Below are positions 10,759 to 18,479 of a stretch of DNA of 32,596 nt, in pieces. Numbering within the stretch: the stretch's first letter is position 1; each line of letters opens with the position of its first letter. Position numbers and translations under genes: made by a program. This DNA is from Chlorobiaceae bacterium (GTDB lineage: Bacteria; Bacteroidota; Chlorobiia; Chlorobiales; Chlorobiaceae): contig JAFGMZ010000156.1 of the NCBI GenBank assembly GCA_016927285.1, forward strand, positions 1 through 32,596. The letters run 5' to 3'. Under the pieces are notes generated by a model. That model had not been told where the DNA came from. It made no database searches and worked only from the letters and a program-made list of their open reading frames with translations.

Positions 10759-11044
10759 GTTAGTATGGGGGCTATGTTATGTTTGTTACGCTGAGGAAAT
10801 TTTTTTCAATATACGAATCGCTGTTTTCCGTAGAATATTATTGTGCAATACCGGTATCGAAAAACTCCTTCATAGCCTCACGCTGCTCCCGAAGCAACGC
10901 GTTCATCATCTTTGACTGCTCACGGTATTTCAACCATGTCCCGCCCTTATAAGCGTTTCTCGACGCTGCCGCCTTTCCGCTTTCTGTTACCGGCCCGAAG
11001 CCTTAACATTTGTCAACAATCTCGGATACACCCTTGTCCTGATC

Positions 11045-11277
11045 TTGCCCCTTTTTTATGGCTTCGGAAAACTCGGGATAGTGCTCTTTTTTATGGACTT
11101 CAGAAATTCCGGATAGCCCGTAATCCTCCCCAAATCCTCCCCATTTCCTTGCCCTTTTTATGGCCTCCAGAAAGTCCAGAATCTTTCCCAAAACCTTAGT
11201 ATTTCCTTAGGTGTTTTTCTGCCCCGAACCTTGCTAAAACCTTGCCCTTTTTATGGCCTCAGAAAACCCGGTGTAGC
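11045..11277 (-). repeat. Cluster of four ~37-bp degenerate direct repeats
   Basis: Copies begin near 11045, 11082, 11148 and 11241 (a fifth at 10100). All share a core TTTTTATGGCCTCAGAAA-like stretch preceded by TTGCCC or TGCTC and followed by a C/G-rich tail. Orientation is the same in all; spacing is irregular (37, 66, 93 bases), so this is not a CRISPR array. The cluster lies downstream of the primase genes, a position compatible with iterons. Confidence 0.75.
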
Positions 11278-11390
11278 GCTTCTGAATAACAGGTTTTGAC
11301 AGGTTCGCCCGCTTTTGGATTAGAACTTTTTACAACCACCCTGACAGAGCGACCCTTGCCCTGATCTCGGCCTTACCGTCCGCGCCGGAA

Positions 11391-11599: not shown

Positions 11600-11824
11600 T
11601 TATCGCAGAAATATCCACACTGCATCAACGAATAGAATATCGCTATAACGCTGACGTATGAGCCTGTTTTGTTGATCGGATGTGCCCGACCACCTACAAG
11701 AGATAATCCCGCCGATCTGCGGAATACCGCCGCGCCGGACACTCTCCCGGATCTCACCCGCCGGAACCTGAAAAAACCCCGCCATAAACGGCTCAGGTTG
11801 AACGATCTCCCGCCGCCTATACAT
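11600..11824 (-). CDS. Possible small protein overlapping the Toprim gene end
   Basis: A 74-residue ORF starting at ATG 11824, overlapping the stop of the Toprim-like gene by eight bases, as coupled genes do. The product is basic and contains PAGEIRESVRRGG; no family recognised. A second frame is open over the same stretch (11563..11757), and codon evidence is poor, so this is a weak call. Confidence 0.3.
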   Translation of the reverse strand: MYRRREIVQPEPFMAGFFQVPAGEIRESVRRGGIPQIGGIISCRWSGTSDQQNRLIRQRYSDILFVDAVWIFLR

Positions 11825-12722
11825 TGATAGCCTGCTCTCTCAGGATAAAATCAGCAAGGTCAAGGCCTGCGACCCGATCCTCTTCACTTGCCCGCCGTTC
11901 AAGCACATCCGAAACCCTCACGCCCGGCATCTGATCCACTGCAGCCTTCCACTTCTCGAACGCGCCAAGGTCAGGGAACAGTGTTACTTCCCGGCCTCTC
12001 AGAAGGCCCAGTTTCACTACTTTGAGATTGCCTTTTCCGGCTGTCGCAGTCCAGATATATTCCGGCATGAACCCGGCTGCAACTATCGCCGTCTTTTCGC
12101 TCTCCACAACAGCCACCGGCTTCACGGGATCCGCTGCTAACAGATGCTCCCCGAACAGGCACTGCCTCAAGTGATACAGCTCGATCTTCAACGCCTTGTG
12201 AACCCAGGTAACATGATTGAACGGCTCTTTCACTCGCCGGCCTGTCACCGCATCATACAGCATGATCTTTCCACCCCTGATCTTGCCGGTAACGTCCTGC
12301 TGCCAGAATATCGAAGCTCCCGGCCAATGCCTCGACGTGCCGACGTGATAGGCATCGACAAGCCGGAAGGCTATCTCTTCGCCGAATACGCTGCATAGCC
12401 ACAAAGCGAAATTGTTATGCCCGTAACCCGTCAGGCTCCGGCCCGCTGTCTCTGCATCAATGGACGACGGTTCAGGCTCCGGCATCGGCTCCTTTCGTCT
12501 CGCTGCTGCTGTCGGCGGTTTCGTGCCAGTTTGCCGGAAATACTCGCTCGGTCTCAGGTGATAGCCACATGAATCTTCCCTGTCACACCTCCCGACCTCA
12601 TCGGCAACCTGTTCGCCGGTCAAGGTATCGACATACCGGACGAACCTCCGCTGTTGTCGGCAAGCAGGGCAAGCGTACTTTACGCCACCCCGCTCAAGCC
12701 TATACCTGAAATCGCCTGTCAT
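11817..12722 (-). CDS. Zinc-finger/Toprim-like primase component of mobile element
   Basis: A 301-residue protein resembling the DUF6371/CHC2-type replication proteins of Bacteroidetes/Chlorobi elements. The N-terminus has a zinc ribbon (YACPACRQQ ... GRCDREDSCGYH, residues 17-54). A Toprim-like centre follows: VAVVESEKTAIVAAGF near residue 205 (glutamate of the Toprim ExxxT/D block) and EVTLFPDLGAFEKW near residue 245 (aspartate). It is preceded on the same strand by the D5/P4-type helicase, 72 bases upstream, so the pair would form a split primase-helicase for element replication. The start ATG 12722 has only a weak ribosome site. Zinc and Toprim residues are visible; activity is inferred. 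Confidence 0.8.
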   Translation of the reverse strand: MTGDFRYRLERGGVKYACPACRQQRRFVRYVDTLTGEQVADEVGRCDREDSCGYHLRPSEYFRQTGTKPPTAAARRKEPMPEPEPSSIDAETAGRSLTGYGHNNFALWLCSVFGEEIAFRLVDAYHVGTSRHWPGASIFWQQDVTGKIRGGKIMLYDAVTGRRVKEPFNHVTWVHKALKIELYHLRQCLFGEHLLAADPVKPVAVVESEKTAIVAAGFMPEYIWTATAGKGNLKVVKLGLLRGREVTLFPDLGAFEKWKAAVDQMPGVRVSDVLERRASEEDRVAGLDLADFILREQAINV

Positions 12723-12744: not shown

Positions 12745-12785
12745 AAAAAAGATGTTTTCAGAATGTCCGAAATGTCGAAATGTCG
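12745..12785 (+). repeat. Inverted repeat flanking the primase-helicase gene, left copy
   Basis: A 41-bp sequence matching the reverse complement of 14157-14197 at 39 of 41 positions. It contains GATGTTTT and then three spaced GAATGTC/GAAATGTC units. It lies in the 72-base gap between the helicase and Toprim genes. Confidence 0.9.
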
Positions 12786-12794
12786 AAAACAGTG

Positions 12795-14300
12795 CTAAAA
12801 CGGAACCGGATCCAAGCGCCTAACACAACCGAACCCCCATCCCGTGCGCTTCACCTTCTCAAGTCCACAGGCCTCCAAGCGCTTCGAGAAATTCTGTTTC
12901 CCTAATGGCCTGTACCCGTCATCAGCGCAAAAGCTCTTATAGCCTTTGTAGAGTTCTCCTAACGTCTCGAAGCCGACACCTGAAGGCTCAAGCGCTTGTT
13001 CATCGACGAACATCTGAACGGAATCACTTTCCCGCTTATACTGGTCAACCGCACACCGTGCGGCATCGCATTCACTGAACCGACCCTGCTGGAGTAATCG
13101 CCGCAGCCCTTCCAGTGCCCAGTTCAAAACTCCCGGTAGTTCCGAAGCAATGATCTTGCCGGCAAGCCCTTTGTCCTGCTCCGCCTCAGGAATCGTAACC
13201 GTGAAGGGGATAATCAGGAACCGCCGAAAATATGCGTTCGTATGTTCGACATCTCTCGGCAGTTCGTTTGCATTAAAAATCAGCTTCGCATAATCTCTCA
13301 TAATGAACGGCTTTTCGTAAGGCAAGCGCCCTTCTACTGGCTCCCCTGAGACAAGCTGTTTAAACAAGCTCGCTTCAAGCTTGCCGTTTATCTCTGAAGC
13401 GTAATTCACAAGCTTGTCAGCTATCATCGCCCGGTAGTAACCGTTCCGGCTGTCGGTCAGGCTCGACAAGCTGTAACTGCTCGCGTTCTCCGCGCCAAGC
13501 AAGGCAAGCAGTATATCGAACCAAACACTCTTGCCGTTTGCGCCGGTGCCGTAAAGTAGCAGCGCCTTTTCAAGCTTCATGCCTCGAACGAACACGTAAC
13601 CCACAAACTCCGCTAAAACCCGCTGCGAATCTGTATCCGGAAGAACCCTCTCAAGGAATGAGCGGAACAAAGGCGCCTCAGCGTTCTCCCTGTACTCGAA
13701 CGGCAAAACATGCGTCAGGAAATCCGCGCTCCGGTGCTCACGCAGCCGGTGCCCATCGGCATCTATTTCAAGTGTGCCGTTCTGCAGGTTGATAAGGGTT
13801 CGCACCGTGCTAACGTCCGGCTGTGTCAGGTGCGCTTCGCTGTGGAACTGCTCAAGCAAGTCCTTCCGAAACTTGTAATCGTCGGCTCGATACCTCGGAA
13901 CGCCCGATCTCAGCGCCGCCGCCCCCAAAAATGCCTTCATATCATCAGGATCGACCCTCCGCCAATGCGCCCCGGTGTACACGTAAACGTTGCCGTTCTT
14001 TTTACAAACTCCCCAACCCTTATGTTTGGCTAAGTGAACTATATTCTTTACCGAGTATATTCGGTGATGAACCGCTCTCACTTCCTCGCCGCCGGCGACC
14101 CTGGCAAAATCGACCGGCTCGATCTCCTCAAGAAGCTGCCCAAGAATCTCACTTGCCGACATTTCGACATTTCGGACATTCGCAAAACATCTTTTTTTTC
14201 CTGATAATTGTGCAGTATTACCCGTTTCGGCACCGCCCTTGCTGCCGTCCAGCTGCTTGTTGGAAAACCCTGCCCTGATCTCATCAATGGTGCTGCTCAT
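12795..14300 (-). CDS. P4/D5-family primase-helicase (element replication protein)
   Basis: A 501-residue superfamily 3 helicase of the phage/plasmid primase P4 family. The D5 N-terminal region (about 120-230) includes LINLQNGTLEIDADGHRLREH and THVLPFEYRENAEAP. The ATPase carries Walker A LLYGTGANGKSVWFD near residue 265, Walker B-like DKLVNYASEIN and sensor-type KLIFNANELP. The C-terminus (about 400-495) is a winged-helix-like FETLGELYKGYKSFCADDGY segment. ATG 14300 has a strong GAGGAGG site eight bases upstream, confirming the long form, although an internal ATG at 14162 follows one copy of the inverted repeat. Residues 35-50 are encoded by that repeat. It works with the downstream Toprim protein to replicate the excised element. 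Confidence 0.92.
   Translation of the reverse strand: MSSTIDEIRAGFSNKQLDGSKGGAETGNTAQLSGKKRCFANVRNVEMSASEILGQLLEEIEPVDFARVAGGEEVRAVHHRIYSVKNIVHLAKHKGWGVCKKNGNVYVYTGAHWRRVDPDDMKAFLGAAALRSGVPRYRADDYKFRKDLLEQFHSEAHLTQPDVSTVRTLINLQNGTLEIDADGHRLREHRSADFLTHVLPFEYRENAEAPLFRSFLERVLPDTDSQRVLAEFVGYVFVRGMKLEKALLLYGTGANGKSVWFDILLALLGAENASSYSLSSLTDSRNGYYRAMIADKLVNYASEINGKLEASLFKQLVSGEPVEGRLPYEKPFIMRDYAKLIFNANELPRDVEHTNAYFRRFLIIPFTVTIPEAEQDKGLAGKIIASELPGVLNWALEGLRRLLQQGRFSECDAARCAVDQYKRESDSVQMFVDEQALEPSGVGFETLGELYKGYKSFCADDGYRPLGKQNFSKRLEACGLEKVKRTGWGFGCVRRLDPVPF
14157..14197 (-). repeat. Inverted repeat flanking the primase-helicase gene, right copy
   Basis: Reverse complement of 12745-12785 with two mismatches. 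This copy is inside the 5' coding region of the helicase gene (residues about 35-48, GKKRCFANVRNVEMS). Confidence 0.9.
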
Positions 14301-14391: not shown

Positions 14392-14667
14392 TCATCGCTG
14401 CCCTCCTTGCTCTTTTGTGCATCGAATGCAGCCGTTCCGATCCACGTAGTAGCTGAACCTGAGCTTTGACGGGAAGTCCTTCAGGAGCACATACGCATCA
14501 CTACAGGCGCGCCGGACATTCCGCCTGTAGGCATCAAGATCGAAGGCTTTGAGATTGTCGGAAGGAATTGTATCTTTCTTTTGTGCTCGATCATTCGCCC
14601 GATCTTCACGATTCTGGTTTTGCCCTCTCGGACTCGCCCCCGGAAGGGCACTACTGTTTCCAGTCAT
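14392..14667 (-). CDS. Small hypothetical protein following xis
   Basis: A 91-residue protein starting MTGNSSALPGAS. The track begins at 14700, but ATG 14667 overlaps the preceding stop as ATGA and has GGAGG seven bases upstream, which settles the start. The N-terminal 40 residues are polar and disordered. The C-terminal half (AFDLDAYRRNVRRACSDAYV ... YYVDRNGCIRCTKEQ) looks like a small folded domain with two cysteines. No family recognised. Its placement between xis and the helicase suggests a role in replication control or excision. Confidence 0.78.
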   Translation of the reverse strand: MTGNSSALPGASPRGQNQNREDRANDRAQKKDTIPSDNLKAFDLDAYRRNVRRACSDAYVLLKDFPSKLRFSYYVDRNGCIRCTKEQGGQR

Positions 14668-14963
14668 TTTGCACCCTCCTTCACGGCTATGTGAGTACAA
14701 GCCGCCGCTTCGATCTCTTCAGCCGTAGCCTTGCGTCCCCGAAGCATCCATGCCTCAAGCTCCTCGCGATTGAAATAAATCGCCTTACCTGTCGGTTTGT
14801 AACACGGGATTCCGTTTGTGCTGGTGAGTTTGTAGAGATGAGACAGCGATAACCCTGTGAGAATTGCTGCTTCGCGCATGGTGAGAACAGTCTTGTTTGC
14901 CACAAGTAGTCCCTCGATACGCTCCAAGCGCTCATTCATCTGGTCAAGTTCAGGTAATGCCAT
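14664..14963 (-). CDS. Helix-turn-helix protein, MerR/excisionase (Xis) type
   Basis: A 99-residue DNA-binding protein. Residues 1-25 form a short coiled coil (LDQMNERLERIEGLLVANK). Residues 27-75 are the winged HTH of the excisionase family: LTMREAAILTGLSLSHLYKL then GIPCYKPTGKAIYFNREELEAWML. Such proteins direct excision and often act as transcription regulators. The ATG is one base inside a 10-bp outer stem of a three-way-junction fold (14965-15017), so translation or expression is likely controlled there. It is followed by the 91-aa gene with a four-base overlap. Confidence 0.9.
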   Translation of the reverse strand: MALPELDQMNERLERIEGLLVANKTVLTMREAAILTGLSLSHLYKLTSTNGIPCYKPTGKAIYFNREELEAWMLRGRKATAEEIEAAACTHIAVKEGAK

Positions 14964-14964
14964 T

Positions 14965-15037
14965 TTGCCTGTAAGGTTTGATTAACAAACTCAGTCTTTG
15001 TGACTGATTACAGGCAACTTCATAAAAGAAATGAAGT
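14965..15037 (-). promoter_or_regulatory. Three-way-junction fold plus hairpin in the xis leader
   Basis: Outer perfect 10-bp repeat TTGCCTGTAA (14965-14974) and TTACAGGCAA (15008-15017). Between them are two complete hairpins: GTTTG/CAAAC (14976-14990, five-base loop) and TCAGTC/GACTGA (14991-15007, five-base loop). A separate 7-bp hairpin ACTTCAT/ATGAAGT follows at 15017-15037. The outer stem includes the AGG nearest the xis start codon, so folding of a leader RNA would hide the ribosome site. It could equally act as DNA, as an operator, cruciform or single-strand origin. Confidence 0.7.
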
Positions 15038-15059
15038 GTGAGAATAGACAGGACTTACA

Positions 15060-15096
15060 TGTAAAGGGGTGTAAAGGATGTAAAGGATGTAAAGGA
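15060..15096 (+). repeat. Four tandem TGTAAAGGA iterons
   Basis: TGTAAAGGGG then three exact TGTAAAGGA units, head to tail at 9-10 bp, between the 331-aa gene stop and the xis leader. The spacing, close to one DNA turn, fits cooperative binding by a replication initiator or regulator. Confidence 0.85.
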
Positions 15097-15102
15097 TGAA
15101 CT

Positions 15103-16111: not shown

Positions 16112-17275
16112 TTAAATGTTCAGCCCTGAAAGCTCAGGAATCCGCGCCGTCATCGCTTCCCTTCTTGTCTTGTCCAGAATATCGGCATAGATAGCCGTTA
16201 CCTCTATCTCCCTGTGGCCTAATAGCCGGCTCAGGGTGTAAATGTCCGTCCCGTTCTCAAGCTGCAACACGGCGAAGGTATGGCGGCCGGAATGAAACGT
16301 CAGGTGCTTGGTAATGCCAGCCTTCAGAGCCCATTCACGGAGAACGATGCTGAGGTAAGCTGAATATGCGCTTATAGCAAAGAACACCCGATCATCGGGC
16401 GCGCCAGATTCCCCCATGAGTTCCCGCGCCTGCTTTGATATGTCGAGATACTGCAACCCTTTTGTTTTTTGCTGGTGGAATACTACCCTCCAGCCTTCGC
16501 CCTGCCGCTGCACCTCGCCCCATGTCAACTTATGGCAATCAGAGAAGCGTAGCCCGGTAAGGCACGAGAACAGGAACATCCGCTTCAGCGTAGGGTTCCG
16601 GCATTCAGCCTTTGCTATTGCCTGAAGTTCGTCGAAGGTCAGGTATTCCCGCTTGTGTGAAATGATCTTTGGGCGCGCCACACCCTTCGCAGGGTCAACG
16701 GAAAGAATCCCGTCCTTTATCGCCTTATTCAAGCAAGCCTTGAACTTCCCGTAATAAGCGCCCTGAGACGCTGAAGAGAGCCCTTTCCCCGTTCTCGTTG
16801 TCGCCTCATCCCGGAGATAGTCCTTGAACCCTTCGCAAAACGCCTTATCGATCTCCCGGAAGGTGATTCTCGAAGAGTACAGCTTCTCGACAAAACCGGT
16901 GAGGTGTTTCAGCGTGCTTGTCCAGTTTCCCGGATCGTCAGGAGTAGCCTTCTTCTCCGCTTCAGCCTTGAAATAAGTGAGAAACAAGGCCTTGTCCTTT
17001 ACTCCTGCATCAAAACCATATTGACCGTTCTTGATCTCAAGTTCCCGCTTTGCCTTGATCGACTTGGCAAGCTCAAGTATATTCTTGTTATGCTCTTTTT
17101 CCGCCGCTGTTCTCGGCTTGTCGTCAAGATACAGGTTCAGGTATTCGTAATCCCTGAGAACCTTCGCTTTCCCGTCAGGCTGTGTAACCGCGCCCTTGTA
17201 AAACTCAAGATACAGGCTTATGCGCCCGCTCTTACCCTGCTTCCGCTTCCGCAAGTGTACGGATGAAACGTCCAT
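16112..17275 (-). CDS. Tyrosine-type site-specific integrase
   Basis: A 387-residue phage-type integrase that would catalyse integration and excision at the 17-bp core. The N-terminal arm-binding domain (1-90) includes RKRKQGKSGRISLYLEFYKG, and a SAM-like core-binding domain (about 95-190) follows. Catalytic residues are visible: Arg in CLTGLRFSDCHKL, Lys in the beta-hairpin HQQKTKG, His-x2-Arg in FHSGRHTFAV, His in LLGHREIEVT and the nucleophile Tyr in AIYADI. The track starts at a TTG (17311); ATG 17275 preceded by AGGGA is the better start. It is divergent from the restored EEP gene, whose ATG lies only 37 bases away, so the two share a promoter region. Confidence 0.96.
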   Translation of the reverse strand: MDVSSVHLRKRKQGKSGRISLYLEFYKGAVTQPDGKAKVLRDYEYLNLYLDDKPRTAAEKEHNKNILELAKSIKAKRELEIKNGQYGFDAGVKDKALFLTYFKAEAEKKATPDDPGNWTSTLKHLTGFVEKLYSSRITFREIDKAFCEGFKDYLRDEATTRTGKGLSSASQGAYYGKFKACLNKAIKDGILSVDPAKGVARPKIISHKREYLTFDELQAIAKAECRNPTLKRMFLFSCLTGLRFSDCHKLTWGEVQRQGEGWRVVFHQQKTKGLQYLDISKQARELMGESGAPDDRVFFAISAYSAYLSIVLREWALKAGITKHLTFHSGRHTFAVLQLENGTDIYTLSRLLGHREIEVTAIYADILDKTRREAMTARIPELSGLNI

Positions 17276-17304
17276 GCTCTTTCCCTGTTTGACCTTATGG
17301 AACA

Positions 17305-17443
17305 GCAACAAAATGGAACGTCAGCAAATCAATTTATATCAGTCACTTAGAGACTTTACTGATAGCCGAAAACGCCCAAAAACCGCCCTTTTCTTGTTGC
17401 TATTTTTGTTGTTACCTCTTCAAAGTAGCAAATCAGCAACAAA
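17305..17443 (+). repeat. Candidate integrase arm sites, right end (GCAACAAA x2)
   Basis: GCAACAAA at 17305-17312 (touching the ATG of the restored EEP gene) and 17436-17443; inverted TTGTTGC at 17394-17400. They match the octamers near attL and lie between the integrase start and attR. Confidence 0.5.
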
Positions 17444-18479
17444 TAAACCACAAATAACAACAAAATATCAGAAAGAAAGCGCTCTCAAATCAGGTTTAAC
17501 AGCTAATAATAGAAAGGATTACGTAAAGGAAGGAAAAGAACTATTGATTCTGTGGTGGAATGTGGAGAACCTTTTCGACACCATTGATAATCCTGCAACT
17601 GAAGATAATGAATTTACGCCTGCCGGAAAACGGCAGTGGACAGAGAAAAAACTGGCATTGAAAAGGATCCGGATCAGGCGGGTGCTCGAAACTCTCAAAG
17701 TCGATCCGGATGTGGATCGTTACCCTGACATTATAGCATTTGCGGAAACGGAAAACCGCAAGGTTTTCGTGGGTTCGCTTAAAAACATTACCGGCATATC
17801 CTACAGAACCGTCTACTACGAGTCCCCTGATACAAGAGGCATCGATATCGGACTCGCATACAACCCGAAGAGTGTCGGGCTTCGCGCCTCGAAAGCATAT
17901 CATGTGCCAATCGTCAACGATAAACCGACCAGGCATATCATCGCAGCCGGTTTTTCCGCAGGCCGACATCCGTTTCACCTCATCCTCAATCACTGGCCAT
18001 CAAGAGCCTTTGACCGGGAATGGAGCGAACAGAAACGCATTGCAGCCGCAAAGGTAGCACGGCACATCGCTGACAGTCTTCGAACAGTCGACCTCAGTGC
18101 CGATATTATCGTCATGGGAGATTTCAATGACGAACCCCATGACCGATCGGTAAGAGACGTTCTCGGATCTTCCGGCGACAGAAAAAAAGTACTGAAGGAG
18201 TGCCGGGAGCTTTTTTACAACTGCTGGAGTGACTATGAGGGCATCGGCAGCTATTGGTACAGGAATAAATGGGAGCGGATCGACCAGATTCTGATATCTT
18301 GCGGCATGCTGCAGCCGAAAGGATTGTCTGCCGCGCCCAACGCTTTCAGATGCTATCATTTTCCCGACATGCTCACGAGATCGTCGGGAAAACCTTACCA
18401 GACCTACTATAGGGGTCAGTACAAAGGGGGCTATTCCGATCACCTCCCGTTATTGCTCAGGGTTTCTGTCGAGCAATGA
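17313..18479 (+). CDS. Endonuclease/exonuclease/phosphatase (EEP) family protein with element-supplied N-terminus
   Basis: A 388-residue predicted secreted EEP hydrolase (DNase I-like fold; substrates in the family include nucleic acids and phospho-lipids). Body motifs are ILWWNVENLFDT, IIAFAETENR (metal-binding Glu), LILNHWPSR, the catalytic VMGDFNDEPHD and the terminal GGYSDHLPLLL. The first 78 residues come from the integrated element: MERQQINLYQSLRDF..., then TALFLLLFLLLPLQ with a likely cleavage after SKSA, then a polar linker that reaches the core in frame. The original start is at 8886. The element DNA here is noticeably more A/T-rich than the body. The ATG has no strong ribosome site; expression would use a promoter shared with int. 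Confidence 0.9.
   Translation: MERQQINLYQSLRDFTDSRKRPKTALFLLLFLLLPLQSSKSATNKPQITTKYQKESALKSGLTANNRKDYVKEGKELLILWWNVENLFDTIDNPATEDNEFTPAGKRQWTEKKLALKRIRIRRVLETLKVDPDVDRYPDIIAFAETENRKVFVGSLKNITGISYRTVYYESPDTRGIDIGLAYNPKSVGLRASKAYHVPIVNDKPTRHIIAAGFSAGRHPFHLILNHWPSRAFDREWSEQKRIAAAKVARHIADSLRTVDLSADIIVMGDFNDEPHDRSVRDVLGSSGDRKKVLKECRELFYNCWSDYEGIGSYWYRNKWERIDQILISCGMLQPKGLSAAPNAFRCYHFPDMLTRSSGKPYQTYYRGQYKGGYSDHLPLLLRVSVEQ
17547..17563 (+). repeat. attR core, 17-bp direct repeat
   Basis: ATTCTGTGGTGGAATGT, identical to 8985-9001, located 79 codons into the restored EEP gene and in the same reading frame as the left copy. Confidence 0.92.

Follow-up and report, generated by a model that had tools for sequence, protein, structure and literature searches.

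In IS10 and IS50, hairpins in the read-through RNA of the transposase gene sequester the ribosome-binding site, and the repeat that forms them involves the terminal sequence of the element. The gene tetQ of CTnDOT is controlled by translational attenuation, which involves tetracycline and a leader peptide. In Bacteroides, integrative mobilizable elements of the NBU1/Tn4555 type carry the genes int, orf2, orf2x, orf3 and prmN1. Moreover, Weinberg and colleagues reportedly found a candidate structured RNA, the int-alpA motif, between integrase and AlpA-like genes. The excision needs of the NBU1/Tn4555-type elements have been described (PMC5704250), and in CTnDOT the activator RteC turns on the excision operon (PMC10865816). 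Beyond a few models, little is known of how excision is kept off in integrative elements while int is expressed.

A branched structure before xis in a Chlorobiaceae element

We analyzed a stretch of DNA of 32,596 nucleotides (here referred to as the window) from a Chlorobiaceae genome; the relatives found belong to Chlorobium/Pelodictyon and Chlorobaculum. The window contains a small integrated element at about 11.8-17.3 kb, with the gene order int-orf331-xis-orf102-D5 helicase-DUF6371 on the minus strand. A three-way-junction structure sits between orf331 and xis, on the xis-coding (minus) strand. The features are as follows.

11817..12722, minus strand: DUF6371 protein, primase-like, with a Zn ribbon and a PG0870-like N-terminus
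12795..14300, minus strand: P4/D5-type helicase-primase
14392..14700, minus strand: orf102, overlapping the end of xis
14664..14963, minus strand: xis, excisionase-family HTH protein of 99 aa (TIGR01764, HTH_17)
14965..14974, minus strand: 3' arm of the outer stem, 10 bp
14976..14990, minus strand: inner hairpin 2, 5 bp with a 5-nt loop
14991..15007, minus strand: inner hairpin 1, 6 bp with a 5-nt loop
15008..15017, minus strand: 5' arm of the outer stem, 10 bp
15017..15037, minus strand: fourth hairpin, 7 bp, with one base in common with the outer stem
15041..15047, minus strand: conserved CTATTCT block, the same in L004 and L006, which might be a promoter -10 region
15054..15098, minus strand: TTTACATCC direct repeats, four to five copies with a 9-bp period, ending in the palindrome TTTACATGTAA
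15103..16098, minus strand: orf331; its counterparts at this place in relatives are diverse, and a C-terminal repeat is common to some
16112..17311, minus strand: tyrosine integrase; the frame is open to 17311 and an ATG near 17275 is the likelier start

The xis product matches both families above their curated cut-offs, with 42.1 bits for TIGR01764 (cut-off 28.8) and 42.2 for HTH_17 (cut-off 27); by these matches it is a member of the excisionase family, with putative excision activity. For orf331, a relationship to RteC was considered and dropped, as neither Pfam, NCBIfam, PDB sequence nor a low-confidence fold supported it.

The outer stem pairs TTGCCTGTAA with TTACAGGCAA (14965-14974 / 15008-15017), and the three-way junction has 21 perfect Watson-Crick pairs and a single unpaired junction base (14975). 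An earlier note, made from the letters alone, had described this 10-bp stem around two hairpins with 5-nt loops and almost no unpaired bases, and every part of that description is present in the sequence. The same is true of its placement of the stem one base from the xis ATG and over the only AGG of the gene: the ATG lies at 14963-14961 on the minus strand, base 14964 alone separates it from the outer stem, and the AGG at 14968-14970 lies inside that stem. The 7-bp fourth hairpin of the note is also present, but it is not separate from the outer stem; A15017 closes the hairpin and also ends the stem, and six of the seven pairs belong to the hairpin exclusively.

The note's view that such compact branching is unlikely by chance was borne out: 136 Mb of first-order Markov sequence, generated with local or window composition, contained no equally good junction. 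The search required 21 or more Watson-Crick pairs and no more than 4 junction bases, and this three-way junction is the sole one of that kind within the window. The fold z-scores for 14960-15040 were -6.0 as RNA and -6.2 as ssDNA. The predicted fold leaves the ATG mostly unpaired (0.66-0.99) and buries the AGG; opening the ribosome site costs 9.5 kcal/mol, an unexceptional value among the genes of the window in this GC-rich genome. Rfam covariance models gave no match at E<=1 to the structure or to 12 relatives of it, and further copies elsewhere in the same genome were not found.

In element-free genomes, homology to the exonuclease gene beside int starts at about residue 75, near 17545, and in L041 and L057 a related integrase adjoins this same exonuclease gene. 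From such comparisons, the element seems to end, on its integrase side, near 17545, beyond int and about 2.5 kb from the structure. The earlier suggestion of an attP-associated cruciform is not supported, given this apparent distance, and also because a double-stranded palindrome would not favour G.U over A.C, as the related stems do (see below). The element sits at the 5' end of this exonuclease/endonuclease-like gene (17313-17560). About 74 residues at the start of the present exonuclease frame are matched only in genomes with the element there, and integration may supply the gene with a new N-terminus.

Other repeats and folds were seen in and near the element. Two 41-nt inverted repeats (12745-12785 and 14157-14197), 95% complementary and carrying CGACATTTCGACATTTCGGACATT, flank the D5 helicase gene, and the right arm overlies a likely in-frame start (MSASEILG...); they may be initiator or regulatory sites, or remnants of a cassette that moved. 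At 11050-11280, to the left of where the coding part of the element ends, there are degenerate tandem copies of CCCTTTTTATGGCCTC(A/C)AGAAA..., spaced 35-93 nt apart. A second three-way-junction-like fold of 21 pairs lies immediately left of the element (10802-10864, minus strand); it has a 10-bp outer stem, with G.U allowed, and 5 junction bases.

Start-codon stems in related elements

Among the 98 genomes of the class that were searched, just five others carry a close homologue of xis. In L004, L005 and L006 the RNA directly before xis is also predicted to fold as a three-way junction, of unrelated sequence, in which the outer stem CCCATAG/CTATGGG has the xis ATG within its paired bases and two inner hairpins are present; the window junction cannot be aligned to these. 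By prediction, then, the ribosome-binding site or the start codon pairs with the upstream leader, through the AGG in the window and through the ATG in L004-L006. No clear junction was found in L003 or L007, and the xis protein of L003 is near-identical, yet this locus has no such structure. In a second excisionase-like family of Chlorobiaceae, CCATCG is paired with CGATGG over the ATG. A covariance model built from L004-L006 (R2) recovered its own members and weak matches, nothing more. The best of the weak matches, L162, was rejected as a relative; it is probably a part of an RNase P RNA and has no xis beside it. As far as sequence comparison can tell, it is pairing rather than sequence that is kept in these relatives, and column-wise covariation is thin.

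We then looked at xis homologues across Bacteroidota with a stem test that joins positions -70..-17 with -16..+9, the control being the same halves swapped between homologues. A strong stem was present in 38 of 88 nonredundant homologues, against 6.7 expected from swapped halves. A region shifted upstream also exceeded its swapped control, though less so (13 against 3.8), so xis leaders are structured more generally. With other gene starts of the same loci as controls, and with start codons picked automatically throughout, the strong start-locked stem was found in 31 of the 67 closer nonredundant xis homologues and in 15 of 235 control starts (p=4e-13; here and below, p-values account for shared ancestry only via clustering). 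The difference held in the lowest-GC class, with 19 of 39 xis genes against 3 of 85 controls. After clustering at 60% protein identity the stem was present in 21 of 48 clusters, or 20 of 47 when Chlorobiaceae were removed. Moreover, a position-free search placed the 3' arms in a sharp peak at -10 to +9, and the ATG region is less often unpaired in xis than in control genes (0.35 vs 0.45) despite the lower GC of the xis leaders.

The strong start-locked stem is absent from about half of the xis homologues; its presence at the other half suggests a widespread, previously unnoticed excision brake. No xis relatives were found in viral contigs. Four elements of gut Bacteroidales (L143:2335-2435, L145, L146 and L147) have a different hairpin, GCCCTCCGT...ACGGAGGGC, right after a TAnnTTTG-like box, at the expected 5' end of their xis RNA.

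RNA structure, promoter position and xis translation

A double-stranded palindrome has no strand, and an RNA tolerates G.U pairs on its own strand, which are A.C on the other. Counted on the coding strand, the strong stems of xis leaders have G.U and A.C in the ratio 25:8, against 116:128 in swapped halves (p=0.003) and 13:13 in the upstream-shifted control region. The bias is weaker in the very strongest stems (6:6 at a score of at least 22), and a clear G.U bias was absent from a permissive stem search with many mismatches, instead of which the stricter stems and swapped-half controls were used. Sense leaders also have lower fold z-scores than antisense ones (-2.08 vs -1.65, p=0.01). Six aligned leaders from one Bacteroidota clade share a 22-pair hairpin, and in them every one-sided change that keeps a pair is a G.U on the coding strand. 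Covariation in homologues, one of the checks that the earlier note had named, was thin, with one compensatory change (A-U to U-A) in this six-sequence clade and none among L004-L006. Since the tolerated non-Watson-Crick pairs are mostly coding-strand G.U, selection seems to read the structure as RNA, and the evidence favours an RNA of the xis-coding strand.

We think it probable that this cis-acting leader structure sequesters the ribosome-binding site of xis and keeps excision off while int is expressed. Since int, orf331 and xis all point the same way, transcripts begun at the int promoter are expected to continue into xis. With its ribosome-binding site hidden, xis would be poorly translated by default, and integrase could form without excisionase, which would leave the element integrated. 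Transcripts whose start lies within the 5' arm or beyond it (the prediction for L079, L106 and L135) would pass this gate; where the whole structure is in the xis leader, as is likely in the window, some opening signal would be needed to pass it. For the window we only infer repression of xis translation, because the ATG is largely free though the AGG is buried; Int/Xis separation, promoter position and any switching we infer likewise. The RNA switch for excision proposed by the earlier note thus stands in part: recurrence, enrichment and the G.U bias support an RNA structure at the xis translation start, which may or may not act as a switch.

In Flavobacterium the promoter box TAnnTTTG lies at -12 to -5 from the transcription start (PMC9723704). 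Exact boxes of this kind occur before xis at about three times the expected frequency and fall into two position groups, and we therefore rejected a single promoter position for all xis genes. In L106, L079 and L135 the box predicts a start inside or after the 5' arm, so that only read-through RNA could fold. In L009, L074, L145 and L101 it lies upstream at a distance that would put the entire hairpin into the leader. In the window, CTATTCT is the sole conserved promoter-like block; it lies upstream of the entire structure and beside the repeats, and the whole structure would then be in the xis leader. Should this promoter assignment be correct, the fourth hairpin would be at or near the 5' end of the transcript. 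TTTAC direct repeats are found before the structure in the window and, with a different sequence, in L004 and L006; the TTTACATCC repeats are possible activator or initiator sites. Distant elements carry repeat arrays of their own, such as AATCCCC in L018 and L029.

These box positions bear on a special case of leader sequestration, insulation against read-through only, in which the hairpin forms in RNA from upstream genes and the genuine xis transcript, begun within the 5' arm or past it, is translated freely, as for the transposase genes of IS10/IS50. The starts predicted for L106, L079 and L135 are what it calls for, but the boxes of the other four loci leave the whole hairpin in the leader and the only conserved promoter-like block of the window lies upstream of the entire structure, and we regard it as unlikely. 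Since the predicted starts precede the hairpin in some lineages and fall within it in others, one mechanism may not fit all. For the most part, Bacteroidia ribosomes ignore Shine-Dalgarno sequences (PMC9976891), so burying the AGG may matter less there.

A DNA operator, with inverted repeats that bind Xis or another regulator and an RNA fold that is incidental, is less probable still. Xis is a DNA-binding HTH protein, and repeats beside its own gene would suit autoregulation. However, a double-stranded site is strandless, yet G.U exceeds A.C and sense leaders fold better than antisense ones; the arms track the start codon, and three-way junctions of unrelated sequence are unexpected for a protein site.

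Two further readings we consider very improbable. A single-strand DNA structure for replication or transfer (a single-strand origin, as the earlier note had also suggested, a primase site or an oriT-like hairpin) would suit the ssDNA fold, whose significance equals that of the RNA fold (z -6.2), the repeats alongside and an element that encodes a helicase-primase and a primase-like protein; against it, the stems are locked to the xis ATG across elements, L003 with its near-identical xis protein has no such structure, and the window element has a P4/D5-type helicase-primase, with no rolling-circle Rep or relaxase identified in it. Coding-strand or transfer-strand ssDNA is accordingly the less favoured form, as the fixed relation to the start codon would then go unexplained. 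A 5' stem that stabilizes the mRNA and has no part in initiation would fit the fourth hairpin, which the proposed promoter, if correct, would place at the 5' end of the transcript, but a stabilizing stem would not need to overlap the start codon, as these stems do.

Beyond the window, sequestration of the xis start may extend to the phylum: fast-evolving start-codon structures would guard the xis genes of Bacteroidota integrative elements and, by locking translation, keep Int separate from Xis, with shape and position kept and sequence replaced wholesale. We give this wider proposal slightly less than an even chance.

Comparison with known systems

If true, a xis lock that keeps its structure and changes its sequence would explain in general terms how excision is kept off in a phylum dominant in the gut, and would help to explain why such elements remain integrated. 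It would also mean that cis-acting RNAs can be common and still be missed by sequence-based family searches; if the structures at xis starts do keep shape and position and swap sequence, such searches would miss them.

Of the described systems, IS10/IS50 resemble this locus in that an inverted repeat at a recombination gene of a mobile element hides the start in RNA from upstream. The structures described here differ: they are internal, they precede an excisionase gene of an integrase-type element, and they often belong to the leader of that gene itself. The NBU1/Tn4555-type elements have a similar order of integrase, variable ORF, HTH excisionase, helicase/ATPase and primase-like protein, and L140 and L143 are annotated as integrase, hypothetical, HTH, ATPase and toprim; the host class is another one, and no mobilisation gene was recognized in the element of the window. 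The open-licence papers searched do not mention a start-codon hairpin for elements of this type.

As for CTnDOT, the repeats before the window xis could be activator sites as in its excision operon, but a relation of orf331 to RteC was not detectable by Pfam, NCBIfam or PDB, and the likeness is one of position only. Its tetQ is comparable in that a leader RNA structure controls translation in a Bacteroides mobile element; unlike there, the short ORF that we considered in the window leader (10 codons, 15023-14991) was rejected, not being conserved in L004-L006. The int-alpA motif is likewise a candidate structured RNA at the junction of integrase and AlpA-like genes, but no Rfam match (E<=1) was found here, in a database that may not include this motif. 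The literature searched (open-licence papers only) contained no account of start-codon hairpins at xis genes of this kind, and within those papers a position-fixed sequestering class without sequence conservation, with a three-way-junction form in Chlorobiaceae, is undescribed. Leaders that sequester a ribosome-binding site are already known; on the open-licence literature, their use at xis genes looks new.
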